Below, one piece after another: positions 5,463 through 20,900 of a stretch of DNA of 25,163 nt. Every line of letters begins with the position of its first letter. Positions within the stretch are counted from its first letter, which is position 1. The notes beneath the pieces were generated by a model that was given only the letters and a program-made list of their open reading frames with translations, made no database searches and was not told the DNA's origin. Where the stretch lies: positions 1-25,163 of the forward strand of contig NYZA01000162.1 in the NCBI GenBank assembly GCA_002686955.1. The letters run 5' to 3'. The stretch is from Gemmatimonadota bacterium (GTDB lineage Bacteria; GCA-2686955). Both the position numbers and the translations under genes were made by a program.

Positions 5463-6266
5463 CTAGAATCTGAAGTACAGAGTCATGTGGGGAATGAAGG
5501 GAATGCTCGGTAGCTCCAGGTCCTCATCGTCGAGCACCAACAGATCTTCTTCGCCGAGATCGATGCCGGGCCAGGTGGCTCCAAGTCCGAATCGGAAAGG
5601 CCCAATGCCCGTCTCAAGACCGAGGCCGCCCCTGGCTCTGCCGTTGGTGAGATCCCGGGCGGCCTCGGCGACGAAGATCAACGCCCCCGAGAGGCGAAGA
5701 TCGACGCCCGCCGCCAGGGTGGTGTTGTCAGCGAGAAATGTCGTCGTCAGCTCGCCGTCCGCGAAATCCTCGGAGTCCGGTCCTCCGACAATCCGGGTCT
5801 CGAAGCGCCCCCGCAGCATCTGAAACCCTCCATGCACGCGCAGGCGCGGATCGAGCTCCTTGCTGGCGACGAAGAAGAGCTTGTAGATCGTCGCGTCCGC
5901 ATCGACCGTCGAATCGTCCAGGTTTTTCTCGAGCTCTTCGGTGAAGACATCGCTGTTGAAATGGTGCATCCATCCGGCGCCAACGGCCGCGCTGACCGGG
6001 TAGCCGTCCGACTCCCGCAGAACGGCGACTTTCGCATCGAAGTTGAGCGCCATGAGCAAGTCGAGGGGCAGGTTCGTCGTGATCTGGACCCGATCCGCGA
6101 TGCCCCCGACTCCGGTCTGCCCCAGCAGAGCGATCTGCACAAAGTCATCGGTGTAGGCGGTCTCGGTTCTGAGAAGGCGCGTCGTGGTGTGGGCGAGAGA
6201 TGCTGCGGGACATAGTCCTGCCAGCAAAGAGGCCAGAAGCGTTGCTCGAAAGGGAAGGGTCGGCAT
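5463..6266 (-). CDS. Predicted outer-membrane beta-barrel-like protein
   Basis: A 267-residue exported protein of unknown family. Start ATG 6266 is chosen over a longer frame (to 6413) because it has AGGAGAG upstream and begins a clear signal peptide (MPTLPFRATLLASLLAGL, cleavage near ASLAHT). The rest alternates hydrophobic and polar residues in short strands (RVQITTNLPLDLLMAL, VSAAVGAGWMHHF, RLRVHGGFQML, GLGLETGIGPFRFGLG) and ends in MTLYFRF, a C-terminal aromatic signature usual for BAM-assembled barrels. The family was not identified; a small porin or transport-type barrel is inference. First gene of a two-gene operon with the lipoprotein. Only 52 bp separate it from the divergent PEP-utilizing gene, so the promoters must share this short region. 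Confidence 0.75.
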   Translation of the reverse strand: MPTLPFRATLLASLLAGLCPAASLAHTTTRLLRTETAYTDDFVQIALLGQTGVGGIADRVQITTNLPLDLLMALNFDAKVAVLRESDGYPVSAAVGAGWMHHFNSDVFTEELEKNLDDSTVDADATIYKLFFVASKELDPRLRVHGGFQMLRGRFETRIVGGPDSEDFADGELTTTFLADNTTLAAGVDLRLSGALIFVAEAARDLTNGRARGGLGLETGIGPFRFGLGATWPGIDLGEEDLLVLDDEDLELPSIPFIPHMTLYFRF

Positions 6267-14594: not shown

Positions 14595-14670
14595 TGGTGG
14601 GCCGTCAGGGAATCGAACCCTGGACCTTGAGATTAAAAGTCTCCTGCTCTGCCAACTGAGCTAACGGCCC
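14595..14670 (-). tRNA. tRNA-Lys (anticodon TTT)
   Basis: A complete 76-nt cloverleaf on the minus strand with encoded CCA. The acceptor arm GGGCCGT (14670-14664) pairs with ACGGCCC (14605-14599), the D-arm begins GCTCAGTTGGCAGAGC, the anticodon loop CTTTTAA has TTT at 14637-14635, and the T-arm contains GGTTCGATTCC. The 3' end faces the decayed region at 9.6-14.6 kb. I found no second copy of the tRNA 3' end at the far side of that region that would mark an att site. Confidence 0.97.
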
Positions 14671-14704
14671 GGGTAGAGGTTAGGGGTGGCCGCGGCTTCG
14701 GTCA

Positions 14705-15322
14705 ATGGCCGCAGCGCTTCCGCAGAACCGACAATCCCACGCGGCCTGCTCAGAAGCCACCCCGAAACCGGGCGAAACGGTCGAGGGCTGCTTCAAAGTC
14801 TCGGGCACCGAGCGCTCCTATCGCCTATTCGTCCCCTCGTCCTATCCCGGAGGCGACGGCCAATTGCCGCTGGTTATCGGCCTGCACGGAGGTAGCGACA
14901 AAGCGAAATCCTTCGAACGCTACACCAAATTCAGCGAGCTCAGCGAATCGACAGACGAATTCATCGCCGTTTACCCCAAAGGCATCGGTGGTCACTGGAA
15001 CGACGGCCGCGAGGGCGGGGCCGATGGCGACGAATTGCGCCGATGGAGAGCCCTTGCCGATCGCCTTCGCCTTCGCCTTCGGTCGCGAAGAAACTTCGTT
15101 CTTGACGAGCGGGCGACAGGTCAACCCCGTCAAACCCAGCCAACTTCGCGGACGACACATCGGCATCGGCCCAGCGTCGACCTATGGCACAAGCGAAACC
15201 GTTGCAAAGGTCGCATCGATTCCGAAGGGCCGATCGACCGCCACAAGAAGCGCTGGGGACCGAAGAACAACGACCACACGCGCTTCTTCGCCGCCATCGA
15301 CACGTCGGAACCTAAGGAGTGA
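14705..15322 (+). pseudogene. Truncated polyhydroxybutyrate depolymerase / LpqC-type esterase
   Basis: The first ~105 residues of this 205-residue frame match the N-terminal half of secreted PHB-depolymerase/feruloyl-esterase-type alpha/beta hydrolases: SYRLFVPSSYPGG, LPLVIGLHGGSDKAKSFER for the oxyanion loop, and FIAVYPKGIGGHWNDGR. After about position 15025 the similarity stops. The expected GxSxG nucleophile and the Asp and His of the triad are missing, and the rest is basic, low-complexity-like sequence, including three tandem CGCCTT units at 15062-15079. There is no signal peptide, and the frame starts only 35 bp from the tRNA. Broken at the 3' side for certain and probably at the 5' side. 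Nothing recognisable is encoded from 15025 to 15370. Confidence 0.75.
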
Positions 15323-15370: not shown

Positions 15371-16909
15371 TTGACCATCAAGTTGGTTGCATCGATGAGC
15401 TTCGTGCTCGTGGTTTGCCTCGCCCTCTTTGCTCTGCTCATAGATGAATCGGAAGAGCGGGTGATGGACGAGCTCAGCGACACAGTATCGTCGGTGGGGC
15501 GAGCGACGCTCGACGCGATCGGGAGCGAGGGCGCGGCCGGAGGGGCGATCGAAGAGCGCACGAAACACCTCGCGGGCGCCCGTATCGAGAGTGAGATCGT
15601 GGAGGTGCGCGAGCGGAAGACGGGCGGCTCTGTGCACGCGGAGGTCGTCGTCGTCCGCAAGGGAGAAGGCGGAAGGGTCGTGGTGCGCGGAGGCTCGGAA
15701 GAGAAAGAGGCGATCGACTCGCTCCGCGCCGTCGCGCGCGCCCGGCTCCCGCGGCCTTCGCCCGACGAAGACTCGCCCCTATCGATCTTCGTGCACAAGA
15801 TCATCACCGAATCGGATTCCGGGGCGCTGGTGATGAAGATCCCGGCGATCGATGCGGGCGGGGGCGCCGATTCGGCCGGCGCGACCTTCGAAAAGGGTAC
15901 GAGCGAGATTCGCGTTGCTTTTTCGACGGCCGACTACGACGCCCTTTTCGCCTCGACGCGCCGCCGACTGCTCCTCCTCTTCGCGTGCGTGCTCGCGACC
16001 GGAATCGTGCTCTCGGTCTGGCTGGCGCGCCGCTTCACCCGTCCGATCCGTTCGATGGACCGCGCGCTCGGGGCACTAGGACGGGGCGATCTCGAGGCGC
16101 GCGTGGAGGTGAAGGGGAACGATGAGCTTGCGAGGTTGGGTCGCGCTTTCAACGGGATGGCCGACTCGTTGGCCGCCGCGCGGGAGCGGGAGCGGCGCCT
16201 GGTGCGCAGCGAGAAGCTCACGGCTCTGGGACGGTTGGCCGCGGGGGTGGCGCACGACGTACGCAATCCGATCCACTCCGTCGGATTGACCCTGCAACAT
16301 ATCGAGGATTTCCGCCGCCTCGAAGACACCGCCGATGACGAGGAGCTAAATCGCTCGATCAGCATCATCCGAAGCGAGCTTCGCCGCGTCGATCGCCTCG
16401 TGGCCTCCTTCCTGCGCTTCGCCCAAAACGAGCCGATGGAGCGACAGAAAATCTCGATCGAGTCGCTGATGGACGATGTCGCCGCGCTCATCGAGGAGCG
16501 CGCGCGTCGATCGTCGATCAGGATCGAGATCGACACCGCCCCATCGCTCCCGGAGCTCTCGGTCGATGCCGAAGCGATCCGCACCTCGGTCTTGAATCTC
16601 GCCCTGAACAGCATCGACGCGATGCCGGAAGGGGGAGAGCTGCGCTTCTCCTGGCGCGCCCGCGGCGACGAAGTGGAGCTGGAGGTCAGCGACACGGGTC
16701 GGGGGATCAGCGAAGAGCACCTACAACATATTTTCGACTTCGGCTGGACCTCCAGAGACGACGGACACGGCCTTGGGCTGGCGATCGCGCACCAGATTGT
16801 CGTCGAGCAACACGGTGGACGGATCGACGCGCGGAGCCGGGTCGGCGAGGGGACCAAGCTCACTCTCGTTCTTCCGATCTCGTCACCGGAGAAGGAAGCG
16901 TCGTTATGA
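15371..16909 (+). CDS. NtrB/ZraS-type membrane sensor histidine kinase
   Basis: A 512-residue histidine kinase starting at TTG 15371, with GGAGG 9 nt upstream. TM1 is about residues 4-23; a ~175-residue periplasmic sensor follows; TM2 is about 199-216 (LLLLFACVLATGIVLSVWLA); a HAMP domain (RRFTRPIRSMDRALGALGRG) covers about 217-268; the H-box AAGVAHDVRNPIHS has phospho-acceptor His295; the ATPase domain has LNLALNSIDAMPEGG (N box), DTGRGI (G1) and GHGLGLAI (G2). H-box type and architecture match NtrB/ZraS-like kinases that pair with sigma-54 activators. The sensor domain is of no known type that I recognise but contains HKIITESDSGALVMKI, echoed in the exported acidic protein downstream. It overlaps the response regulator by 4 bp (ATGA). 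Confidence 0.93.
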   Translation: MTIKLVASMSFVLVVCLALFALLIDESEERVMDELSDTVSSVGRATLDAIGSEGAAGGAIEERTKHLAGARIESEIVEVRERKTGGSVHAEVVVVRKGEGGRVVVRGGSEEKEAIDSLRAVARARLPRPSPDEDSPLSIFVHKIITESDSGALVMKIPAIDAGGGADSAGATFEKGTSEIRVAFSTADYDALFASTRRRLLLLFACVLATGIVLSVWLARRFTRPIRSMDRALGALGRGDLEARVEVKGNDELARLGRAFNGMADSLAAARERERRLVRSEKLTALGRLAAGVAHDVRNPIHSVGLTLQHIEDFRRLEDTADDEELNRSISIIRSELRRVDRLVASFLRFAQNEPMERQKISIESLMDDVAALIEERARRSSIRIEIDTAPSLPELSVDAEAIRTSVLNLALNSIDAMPEGGELRFSWRARGDEVELEVSDTGRGISEEHLQHIFDFGWTSRDDGHGLGLAIAHQIVVEQHGGRIDARSRVGEGTKLTLVLPISSPEKEASL

Positions 16910-18291
16910 GCCCGGAGTCGAAGGGTTCGCTCCTGGTCGTCGACGATGAAGCGAATCAGCTCGAGATGCTCGCCCGCCTCTTGCGCCGCAGCGGATACAG
17001 CGTCGTCGCGGCGGAATCGGGATCGGAGGCGCTCGATATCGTGCGCGGAGCGCGCAACCTCGACCTGCTGGTCACCGACCAACAGATGCCTGGGATCGAC
17101 GGCCTCGACCTGATCGACGCCGTCCACAGCGAACGCCCCGGGCTCCCGATCGTGCTCGTAACCGCTTATGCCTCAGTCTCCAAGGCGGTCGAGGCGATGC
17201 GGCGCGGAGCATCGGACTACCTCACCAAGCCTTTCGAACGCGCCGACCTCTTGCGCGTGATCGAGCGGGTGTTGGAGCACCGCCGTCTCGAGCACGAAAT
17301 CGCATCGCTTCGCGCCGCGCTGGCGGGACGCCACCGACTCTGTGGAATCGTCGGCAAGTCCCCGGCGATGCAAGAGCTCTTCTCGCTGATCGAGCGGGTC
17401 GCCCCCAGCCAAGCATCGGTCTTGATCCGTGGGGAGAGCGGCACCGGCAAAGAGCTGGTCGCCAGGGCGCTGCACGCGCTCAGTCCGCGGGCGTCCGGAC
17501 CCTTCGTCGGGCTGAACTGCGCGGCCATCCCGGAAAACTTGTTGGAGAGTGAGTTCTTCGGGCACGAACGCGGCGCCTTCACCGGTGCCGATGCCGCTCG
17601 GCCGGGGCGATTCGAGCAGGCCGATGGAGGCACACTTTTCCTCGACGAGATCGGGGCAATGCGCGTCGACCTTCAATCGAAGCTGCTGCGCGTCATTCAG
17701 GAGCGAGAAATTTCGCGACTGGGCGCCACCACATCCCGCCCACTCGACCTGCGGATACTCGCGGCGACATCGGAGAAGCTGGAAGACGCCATCGGTGATC
17801 GTCGATTTCGAGAGGATCTTTTCTATCGCCTGAACGTCGTGGCCGTCGTCCTGCCTCCGCTTCGCGACCGCCCAGAGGATATTCCGCTCCTTGCGGAGCA
17901 TCTTTGCGAGCGAGCCTCCGAACGACTAGGGCGAGATCCCCTGCCCCTGGAGCCGGGCGTGCTGGACCGTCTTATCGCGCACTCCTGGCCCGGCAATGTC
18001 CGGGAGCTCGAGAACTGCATCGAGAGAATGGTGGTGCTGGCGCGCGGAGAACGATTGGAGAACGGAGACTTGCCGGAATCGATTCGCGATCGATCGAATG
18101 CGGAGGGCTCCGGGGATGTCTCTCTTCCCGCCGAAGGGCTCTCTCTCGAAGCGGTCGAGCGCAGCCTGATCTTGCAGGCATTGCGGCGCACGAGAGGCGC
18201 ACTGGCCCCGGCGGCCCGGCTGCTCGACATCTCCTACAAGACCCTGCAATATCGTTTGCGCAAGTTCGGAATCGATCGGGAGCGTTTCTGA
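16906..18291 (+). CDS. NtrC-family sigma-54-dependent response regulator
   Basis: A 461-residue activator. The receiver domain (1-120) has acidic pocket D13/D14, phospho-acceptor D58 (LLVTDQQMPG), the conserved Thr in VTAY and Lys in LTKPF. The AAA+ domain (~145-375) has Walker A GESGTGKE (176-183), GAFTGA (223-228), the sigma-54-contacting loop, fully intact, and Walker B GGTLFLDEIG. R-fingers are in the usual FREDLFYRLNV region. The C-terminal Fis-type HTH (ALRRTRGALAPAARLLDISYKTLQYRLRKFGI) binds DNA. Co-translated with the kinase and therefore its cognate partner. The nearest downstream promoter has sigma-54 consensus and a palindrome suited to this HTH, so it likely drives the acidic-protein gene. 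Confidence 0.95.
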   Translation: MSPESKGSLLVVDDEANQLEMLARLLRRSGYSVVAAESGSEALDIVRGARNLDLLVTDQQMPGIDGLDLIDAVHSERPGLPIVLVTAYASVSKAVEAMRRGASDYLTKPFERADLLRVIERVLEHRRLEHEIASLRAALAGRHRLCGIVGKSPAMQELFSLIERVAPSQASVLIRGESGTGKELVARALHALSPRASGPFVGLNCAAIPENLLESEFFGHERGAFTGADAARPGRFEQADGGTLFLDEIGAMRVDLQSKLLRVIQEREISRLGATTSRPLDLRILAATSEKLEDAIGDRRFREDLFYRLNVVAVVLPPLRDRPEDIPLLAEHLCERASERLGRDPLPLEPGVLDRLIAHSWPGNVRELENCIERMVVLARGERLENGDLPESIRDRSNAEGSGDVSLPAEGLSLEAVERSLILQALRRTRGALAPAARLLDISYKTLQYRLRKFGIDRERF

Positions 18292-18318
18292 TCCCCCCAA
18301 CCCCATCTCGGGCGGACC

Positions 18319-18334
18319 CACCTCATATGAGGTG
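18319..18334. promoter_or_regulatory. Perfect 16-bp palindrome, candidate enhancer (UAS) for the NtrC-type activator
   Basis: CACCTCATATGAGGTG is an exact inverted repeat with no loop, centred about 75-90 bp upstream of the sigma-54 promoter's -24 element and about 100 bp from the expected transcription start. That is the usual distance for an activator site of NtrC-like proteins. It is not followed by a T-run, so a terminator is unlikely. Confidence 0.65.
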
Positions 18335-18400
18335 AGAACATTGGCCTGCGAGGAGAGCCCCAAACGTTGTATCGCAATCACTTGCGGCCGAATTCGCCTC

Positions 18401-18417
18401 TGGCACGTTCACTGCGA
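18401..18417 (+). promoter_or_regulatory. Sigma-54 (-24/-12) promoter
   Basis: TGGCACGTTCACTGCGA matches the consensus TGGCAC-N5-TTGC except for C in place of the first T of the -12 box. The invariant GG and GC are separated by exactly 10 bp. Expected transcription start is near 18427, about 43 bp before the ATG of the acidic-protein gene. It lies directly downstream of the sigma-54 activator gene. Confidence 0.7.
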
Positions 18418-18469
18418 ACCCCACGACCGGCCGCCGGCTGGGGGTGGCCTTCCCAAGAAAGGCAACAGC

Positions 18470-19108
18470 ATGATTCCGCAACCGATCCGAACCGCACTGG
18501 CGGCACTCTCCATCACTCTTCTCCCCGCACTCTCTTCGGCCATCGAAGGCGCCACCGAGGAGCTGCATCTCTCCGATCTCGCCGACGGGGAAACCCGACT
18601 CTTCGGCGAGGGCGGCCACGCCATCAGCGCGACCCGCGACGGCGACATCGTGACCGTCTCGCTGCCCGGCGTCGAAGGCGACGAAGACCACGAAATCGTC
18701 GTCGATCTTTCCGAAGATGATGGCCACGTCGTGGTCGTCGGCGAAGATGAGCACCGCGCCGTTTGGGTCAAAGCCGGCGGGGAGCTGGACGCGGGCGAAG
18801 TCGAGATCGAGATCGAAGAGCTCGACGACGAGGAGCTCGAAGGCGCCCAAGTCATCATTCGCAAGATGATCACCGTCGAAGACGACGAAGATGGAGAAAA
18901 CACCACTTCCATGATGCGCGTTATTCGCGTCGGCGGGGAGCGAGAAGGAGGCGAGGGCGAAGAGATCGAAATCGATGTTGAAGCGTTGGTCGACGAGCTC
19001 GGAGAAGAGGCCGAGATCCGAATCATGAAGATCCACACCGAAGAGGGCGACGAAGGAACCAAAGTGATGGTGCGGATCGAAGCGGATGCCGAGATCGAGG
19101 AGGAGTAG
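18470..19108 (+). CDS. Small exported, highly acidic protein; likely output of the two-component system
   Basis: A 212-residue protein of unknown family. Start ATG 18470 is chosen over a longer frame (18332) because it begins a signal peptide (IRTALAALSITLLPALSSA) and lies just after the sigma-54 promoter, with AAAGG 7 nt upstream. The mature chain is extremely rich in Glu and Asp, with short beta-like repeats (HEIVVDLSEDDGHVVVVGED, VEIEIEELDDEELEG). A motif KM.TVEDDEDG...MMRVI (near 128-150) recurs as KIHTEEGDEGTKVMVRI (near 183-205) and resembles KIITESDSGALVMKI in the kinase sensor. Metal binding or chaperone-like action in the periplasm is inference. Position and promoter parallel ZraP in ZraPSR systems, though it is not a ZraP homologue by sequence. 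Convergent with mltD, 19 bp apart. Confidence 0.8.
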   Translation: MIPQPIRTALAALSITLLPALSSAIEGATEELHLSDLADGETRLFGEGGHAISATRDGDIVTVSLPGVEGDEDHEIVVDLSEDDGHVVVVGEDEHRAVWVKAGGELDAGEVEIEIEELDDEELEGAQVIIRKMITVEDDEDGENTTSMMRVIRVGGEREGGEGEEIEIDVEALVDELGEEAEIRIMKIHTEEGDEGTKVMVRIEADAEIEEE

Positions 19109-19127
19109 GTAAGGGTTCGCGCGAGAA

Positions 19128-20900
19128 TCAAGGGACGACGATACGCTGATCCGGGTAGATCGTGCTCCTGCTGGTGAGGCCGTTGGCGCGCATCAAGGCG
19201 CCCAAGTCGACACCGTACTTCCGCGCGATCTTCCCCAACGTGTCTCCCTTGCGCACGGTATGAACGCGAGCGCCGTGCCGGCTCCCCGGAACGATTCGGA
19301 GCTTGGTTCCCGGTGTGATTCGACTGCTGCTCAATCGATTCTCACGCTTAATTGTGTTAACGCTGGTTCCGTATCTCTTGGCGATGTCCCAAAGTGTGTC
19401 GCCCCTGCGAACGACATGAACGACGGGATCGGCCGAAACACCTTGACTCGCGAACGAGGGTGAGTAGCCGGCCGCCACCGGTATCTTGATGCGCCGGCCG
19501 GGGTAGATCCGATTGACGTTCCTGATACCGTTGGCGCGCGCGATCGCGTTGACTCCAACGCCGTAGATACTGGCTATGGTCGAAAGATTCTGCCCCCGTC
19601 TGACCCTGTGCGTGACGAACTTCGGGGTCGGTGGCGTGTAGACCGGCATCTCCCGCAGGCACTCCCGCACGCTCGCATGCCGCTCCGCGGGGACCTTCAG
19701 CTCGTAGGTGGCCTTCGGTGTGATCCCCCGTCGCAACTCGGGATTGTAGCGTCGCAGCAGCCCCTCGGGCAGGCCCAGGCGCGACTCGATCCCCTTCAGC
19801 TCAAACTCTTTCTCGGTCGTGACGACCATCGGGTCGGACAGCGGCTCCAAGGGCTCCGGCAGCTCGATCCCGAATCTCCCGGGATCCTCGATGATCGCCA
19901 GAGTCGCAAAGAAACGTGGGACGTAGCGCCGAGTCTCCCGGGGAAGCTGTTCGTAGAGGTCCCAGAAATCCAGGTCTTGCCCCGGCTCCTGCCGATCGAG
20001 GCGCAGCACCCGATGCTCGCCGCAGTTGTACGCCGCCAGCGCCTGCGGCCAGTCGCCGAATAGATCGTGCAGCTCGCTCAGATAGGCGATCGCCGCGTCG
20101 GTCGATCGTTCCGGGTCCATCCGCTCGTCGATCCAGGCATCGCGCGAAAGACCGTAGCGACGCCCCGTCGACAAGATGAACTGCCACATCCCCAGCGCCT
20201 TCGCCCGAGAATATGCATCGACCTTGAAACCGCTCTCGATCAGGGGCAGCCAGCTCAGCTGGCTCGGCAGACCGGCCTCGGCGAGCTTCGCGAGGATCAT
20301 CGGCCGGTAACGCCCGGAGCGACGATACGCCCCGATGAGGAATCCCCCTTCCGCCTTCTGAAACGACTTGATCTCCTGCTGCACTCGATCGTTCTCGACG
20401 ATCTGTATCTCCAGATCCCATTCGATCCGCGGCTCGCCGGCGGCGGTGCGCTGCGAAGCGTAGATATCCAGCAACTTCTCCGCGACAATCCGACGAATAT
20501 CCGCCTTGGTCTGCGCCGCCACTGGATCGCCGTTCTCCGGCAGATTCAGCATCAATTCGTAGGCGCGGTCGAGCGCCGCGATCGCATCGTCCAGCTCACC
20601 CTCGTCGAGAAACACCTCGGCCGACTCGCAAGCCTCGATCGCCTCTGCCTGCGCGGTCTGCGCGAGAGCCATCGGCGCCGCCTCGCTTCCATCCACCGCC
20701 GCCGATGCCCTCCCGGTCGAGTCCGCGGTGGCCTCTCGTGGAGGTTCCGCCGGCTCGATGCTCCGCTCATGGGACCGCCGCCCTCCGTAGGTGCCGGCGG
20801 TAGACACCTTGGAGCCACAGCCCAGAAGACAGACAAGAAGTGCCGGGCACAGAGCCCAAGGGATCGGTTTGCGTCGCGAAAGGGGGGGGAATGCCCGCAT
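19128..20900 (-). CDS. mltD: Membrane-bound lytic murein transglycosylase D
   Basis: A 590-residue lipoprotein (LLGC lipobox, Cys28) that cleaves peptidoglycan glycan strands between MurNAc and GlcNAc. In order: a linker with a short TPR-like helix pair (about 85-120), then the SLT domain with catalytic Glu222 in LPLIESGFKVDAYSRAKALG, the family's MWQFILSTGRRYGL and ALAAYNCGEHRV motifs, and three LysM repeats (about 430-474, 494-537, 546-590), each beginning [TV]H.VR.G..L. E. coli MltD usually has two LysM repeats; three is common elsewhere. The ribosome-binding site AGGAG is 5 nt from the ATG. It lies 67 bp after purA on the same strand and is probably the last gene of that operon. Confidence 0.95.
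   Translation of the reverse strand: MRAFPPLSRRKPIPWALCPALLVCLLGCGSKVSTAGTYGGRRSHERSIEPAEPPREATADSTGRASAAVDGSEAAPMALAQTAQAEAIEACESAEVFLDEGELDDAIAALDRAYELMLNLPENGDPVAAQTKADIRRIVAEKLLDIYASQRTAAGEPRIEWDLEIQIVENDRVQQEIKSFQKAEGGFLIGAYRRSGRYRPMILAKLAEAGLPSQLSWLPLIESGFKVDAYSRAKALGMWQFILSTGRRYGLSRDAWIDERMDPERSTDAAIAYLSELHDLFGDWPQALAAYNCGEHRVLRLDRQEPGQDLDFWDLYEQLPRETRRYVPRFFATLAIIEDPGRFGIELPEPLEPLSDPMVVTTEKEFELKGIESRLGLPEGLLRRYNPELRRGITPKATYELKVPAERHASVRECLREMPVYTPPTPKFVTHRVRRGQNLSTIASIYGVGVNAIARANGIRNVNRIYPGRRIKIPVAAGYSPSFASQGVSADPVVHVVRRGDTLWDIAKRYGTSVNTIKRENRLSSSRITPGTKLRIVPGSRHGARVHTVRKGDTLGKIARKYGVDLGALMRANGLTSRSTIYPDQRIVVP

Follow-up and report, generated by a model that had tools for sequence, protein, structure and literature searches.

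A probable self-contained sigma-54 two-component circuit with an acidic orphan protein as its adjacent predicted target

We describe a sensor kinase and a sigma-54-dependent regulator which, with one adjacent target gene, quite probably form a self-contained two-component sigma-54 regulatory module. The genes lie in a window of 25,163 nucleotides (the whole stretch of DNA that was analysed), which is contig C162 of a 4.28-Mb genome (270 contigs, 84.5% complete). In the proposed circuit, the kinase would sense something outside the cytoplasmic membrane and phosphorylate the regulator, which would bind the palindrome CACCTCATATGAGGTG just past its own gene. By looping, the bound regulator would then reach the RNA polymerase with sigma-54 at TGGCACG-N5-TGC and activate the gene of an acidic protein, which is predicted to be exported (Table 1). 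The layout is ordinary, a common bacterial design of a sigma-54 two-component system with a single target, and will not surprise a specialist; the output protein, a true orphan, is the only new part. Activators encoded together with their sigma-54-dependent target operons have been described, one of them with a predicted palindromic site, and it is established that a neighbouring target can be regulated through such a site combined with a sigma-54 promoter (PMC4641369). A central role for sigma-54 in controlling the bacterial exterior has also been proposed (PMC3162934). The locus thus offers a clean, testable unit of regulator, site, promoter and target in a little-sampled phylum.

Table 1. 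Features of the predicted circuit (positions in the window)
Feature	Position	Strand	Details
Membrane sensor histidine kinase	15371..16909	+	HAMP, HisKA and HATPase_c domain matches
NtrC-type response regulator	16906..18291	+	REC, sigma-54 AAA+ with GAFTGA, Fis-type HTH
Perfect palindrome CACCTCATATGAGGTG	18319..18334		Putative activator (enhancer) site
-24/-12 sigma-54 promoter element TGGCACGTTCACTGC	18401..18415	+	GG-N10-GC exact
Strongly acidic orphan protein, 212 aa, predicted exported	18470..19108	+	Signal peptide about 1-24

The initial annotation had read the first two genes as an NtrB-type kinase and an NtrC-type activator overlapping by 4 bp, which is borne out by their domains and by the ATGA common to the kinase stop codon and the regulator start (ATG at 16906). 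The kinase gene starts with the TTG at 15371, with a GGAGGA Shine-Dalgarno sequence 8 nt 5' of it. Its product has an N-terminal transmembrane segment, an extracytoplasmic region of ~170 aa and a second transmembrane segment, followed by HAMP, HisKA (H-box HDVRNP) and HATPase_c. Domain searches found the kinase of an NtrB/NtrC-type sigma-54 system, and also its regulator, with all three of the expected domains. The reading had been made to depend on the presence of rpoN, and the gene was found on contig C179 (Sigma54_DBD, 212.5 bits).

The extracytoplasmic region of the kinase matched no known domain in Pfam and NCBIfam profile searches and had no relatives among 386 genomes; borderline matches were rejected, as the matched proteins are not kinases. 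A kinase search of genome contigs returned unrelated kinase cores only. The comparison set holds one further genome of the phylum, G001, of the same family as the source. Its best kinase match was rejected as a counterpart, its neighbours being unrelated genes, and a synteny comparison for the MltD neighbour gave only fragments of 34-41% identity on small contigs. No orthologous locus was found, and the comparative evidence is from within one genome. A single-sequence structure model of the kinase was unusable (mean pLDDT 42.9). Upstream of the kinase gene, the interval 14595-15322 holds a tRNA-Lys gene on the minus strand and then, just 5' of the kinase, a gene that matches the first third only of a polyhydroxyalkanoate depolymerase model and looks truncated or broken.

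The single 178-bp gap between regulator and target holds both DNA elements of the circuit, each improbable by chance. The -24/-12 promoter with exact GG-N10-GC spacing that had been noticed earlier is indeed present: in TGGCACGTTCACTGC, predicted from sequence, GG occupies 18402-18403 and GC 18414-18415. The element ends 54 nt 5' of the ATG at 18470, the likely start of the acidic gene (an in-frame GTG at 18332 is an unlikely one). The clearest promoters of this genome carry TTGC; TGGCACGTTCACTGC carries CTGC. TGGCACG-N4-TTGC sites were intergenic in all cases examined and precede flgB, fliA, groES, dnaK and others, which indicates that the sigma-54 motif is in use in this genome. In contrast, four exact-pattern sites without TTGC (on contigs C108, C113, C122 and C124) are intragenic and appear to be chance matches. 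As TGGCACGTTCACTGC is of the weaker CTGC kind, its support comes from position more than from letters.

It could be argued that this match too is due to chance, that the acidic gene simply belongs to the operon as its third gene or is otherwise promoted, and that the pair acts on genes elsewhere. The CTGC variant would fit, as would the frequency of remote targets among activators and the 13 genome-wide matches to the reversed pattern, which mark the chance level. However, TGGCACGN5TGC occurs 22 times in the genome (4.28 Mb, both strands), and chance alone would place only ~3e-4 matches on this strand of the 178-bp gap that separates regulator and target, and sigma-54-like sites are enriched after activator genes (see below); we consider a chance match quite unlikely. 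No sigma-70-like promoter or terminator was found in 18200-19200.

The perfect 16-bp palindrome CACCTCATATGAGGTG, also reported initially as lying downstream of the pair, begins 27-28 nt past the regulator stop codon, and its centre is ~75 bp 5' of the -24 GG. The chance of a perfect palindrome of at least 16 bp in a random 178-bp region of the same G+C is ~0.45%. CACCTCATATGAGGTG is probably the activator (enhancer) binding site of the regulator; about 75 bp upstream of -24 is a usual position for an enhancer. A scan of the genome for the palindrome near other -24/-12 promoters had been suggested, and it found CACCTCATATGAGGTG to be unique: there was no second copy at up to 2 mismatches in the 84.5% complete genome, and at 3 mismatches the number of matches equalled that of the reversed-pattern control. 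The single copy fits a dedicated single-target regulator, but is not proof of one, as 15% of the genome is missing. Alternatively, CACCTCATATGAGGTG might act as an RNA stem-loop at the 3' end of the kinase-regulator mRNA and not as a regulator-binding site, given that it can form a 6-bp stem closed by an ATAT loop and lies 28 nt past the stop codon. This is unlikely, because no T-run follows it, no terminator-like site was found in 18200-19200, its distance from -24 is a usual one for enhancers, and at the corresponding place after a second regulator gene of this genome, on contig C257, the palindrome is another one, as would be the case for regulator-specific sites.

The C257 locus also supports the circuit as a whole, as it repeats its layout. 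Its kinase/regulator pair includes a regulator 48% identical to that of the window; 14 nt past the regulator gene lies the palindrome GGGTCAGTGTCTGACCC, ~84 bp further on the sigma-54-like site GGGCACATTCCTTGCA, and then a gene for a 401-aa exported protein. The two modules are thus alike in the order of regulator, palindrome, sigma-54 site and exported protein, but their palindromes differ and the 401-aa output is unlike the acidic protein. The layout thus recurs within this genome, each instance having a palindrome and an output of its own. By simple consensus scoring in this one genome, sigma-54-like sites scoring at least 13.3, a threshold chosen post hoc after seeing the data, were found in the intergenic region after 7 of 20 sigma-54-activator genes; of 52 other intergenic regions between co-directional genes, 1 had such a site (Fisher p 3.5e-4). 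Of 19 gaps that follow activator genes, 4 contain inverted repeats whose arms measure at least 7, compared with 1 of the 49 other gaps. The enrichment of sites makes promoter, palindrome and neighbour a credible local circuit. Moreover, since sigma-54 activator genes here often directly precede their likely target, the arrangement helps to guess the targets of other activators.

As first described, the target gene encodes a small, strongly acidic protein with a predicted signal peptide, and its ORF end was correctly placed. The mature protein (187 residues) has 62 Asp/Glu (33%), 13 Lys/Arg, 6 His and 0 Cys, with a predicted pI of 4.05 and a charge of ~-48. Of the 220 proteins called in the regions analysed, no other is as acidic; a generally acidic proteome was rejected as a trivial cause of the low pI, as the median pI is 5.7. 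The protein matched no Pfam or NCBIfam model and no plasmid, had no convincing match among PDB chains and no convincing relative in 386 genomes, and none was found in GTDB contigs by peptide patterns. Weak matches in other genomes (E 0.002-1) were rejected as short acidic stretches, and a kinase/activator signature was found near only 1 of the 29 weak-match loci (L113, match E 0.04). A resemblance of the sensor domain to the output protein (a common 'K-[IM]-x-T...D-G' hairpin) was also rejected, the local alignment being no better than shuffles (p 0.13-0.41). The single-sequence structure model was unusable (mean pLDDT 44.9).

With no matches and models this poor, the function of the protein can only be guessed, and an inducible polyanion is the simplest guess. 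We tentatively suggest that it might be located in the envelope or secreted and, by binding cations or molecules with a positive charge, relieve the stress to which the kinase responds. It is rather doubtful that it is the first of a new class of polyanionic envelope proteins induced through sigma-54, buffers of cations or cationic compounds that would be paired with a new extracytoplasmic sensor domain. It is also possible, though not very probable, that the protein acts mainly on the kinase, as an accessory or feedback partner (compare QseG-QseE and CpxP-CpxA), and not as an effector that relieves stress; the sigma-54 promoter would then form a feedback loop. The protein is exported by prediction, its gene is directly adjacent and co-regulation is predicted; also, the lipoprotein QseG controls QseE/QseF, which is active on sigma-54 promoters (PMC6075780). 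QseE/QseG/QseF (GlrK/GlrR) resembles the predicted circuit in that a sigma-54 two-component system has the gene of an exported partner close by, but QseG is a kinase-binding lipoprotein (PMC6075780), whereas the signal peptide of the acidic protein is a typical one without a lipoprotein signal. Furthermore, the acidic protein has no significant similarity to the sensor region, and as the latter also carries a net acidic composition (31 Asp/Glu versus 22 Lys/Arg), simple charge attraction between the two is not suggested.

The circuit had been likened to ZraPSR, with envelope stress or a metal as its possible signal. The shared elements (two-component sigma-54 activator, promoter, palindrome, exported output and rpoN) were found, but a special link to ZraPSR was not supported by family scores, sensor, gene order or output, and the comparison holds as general logic only. 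In E. coli and Salmonella, the ChIP-exo targets of ZraPSR are zraP, zraSR and mgtA; it thus resembles the window in combining a kinase with a sigma-54-dependent response regulator of few targets, an exported protein among them (PMC7657598). The window differs in sensor domain, gene order and output protein, and no self-regulation site was found in it, its palindrome being unique. In NCBIfam scoring, AtoS (208 bits) exceeded ZraS (180 bits; cut-off 479) for the kinase, and AtoC (468 bits) exceeded ZraR (419 bits; cut-off 760) for the regulator, all of them below cut-off. The zraP gene is divergent from the zraSR operon; the target in the window is downstream and on the same strand. The output was rightly called sequence-unrelated to ZraP, as Pfam, NCBIfam and motif searches found neither a ZraP/CpxP/Spy match nor an LTxxQ motif. 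A true ZraPSR relative, responding to zinc or envelope stress and with ZraP replaced, would combine a kinase, a sigma-54 activator and an exported product by the same logic, but the family scores, the unmatched sensor, the gene order and an output with no Cys and only 6 His make it highly unlikely. For the best-scoring models, AtoS (kinase core) and AtoC, the scores are far under the equivalog cut-offs, the sensor region is unmatched and the predicted target is no metabolic operon.

Several other loci of the genome carry sigma-54-like sites. On contig C249 (34069; L164, about 6070-6220), a kinase/sigma-54-activator pair is followed by TGGCACATCGCTTGCG and, within ~150 nt and with no gene called between, by a G+C-rich hairpin with a T-run. 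This locus is a candidate for a sigma-54-driven small RNA, which we take to be comparable to CrcZ beside CbrAB; the region had no Rfam match. On contig C1 (109-2096; L080), a kinase, a sigma-54 activator and a 136-aa gene (PqqD-like by eye) precede a perfect sigma-54 site; the contig ends 109 bp further on, which cuts off the target. On contig C44 (13395-14216; L176), downstream of a sigma-54 activator come a palindrome, a sigma-54-like site and then a gene that encodes a sigma factor of the sigma-70 family, an order which suggests that one alternative sigma factor may control another. Finally, consensus sigma-54 sites lie directly 5' of groES-groEL (C120:70589, L088) and dnaK (C257:20715, L098), which suggests that cytoplasmic chaperones may be under sigma-54 control in this phylum, as a 2025 survey reported for Planctomycetota and Bacteroidota (PMC12316311).
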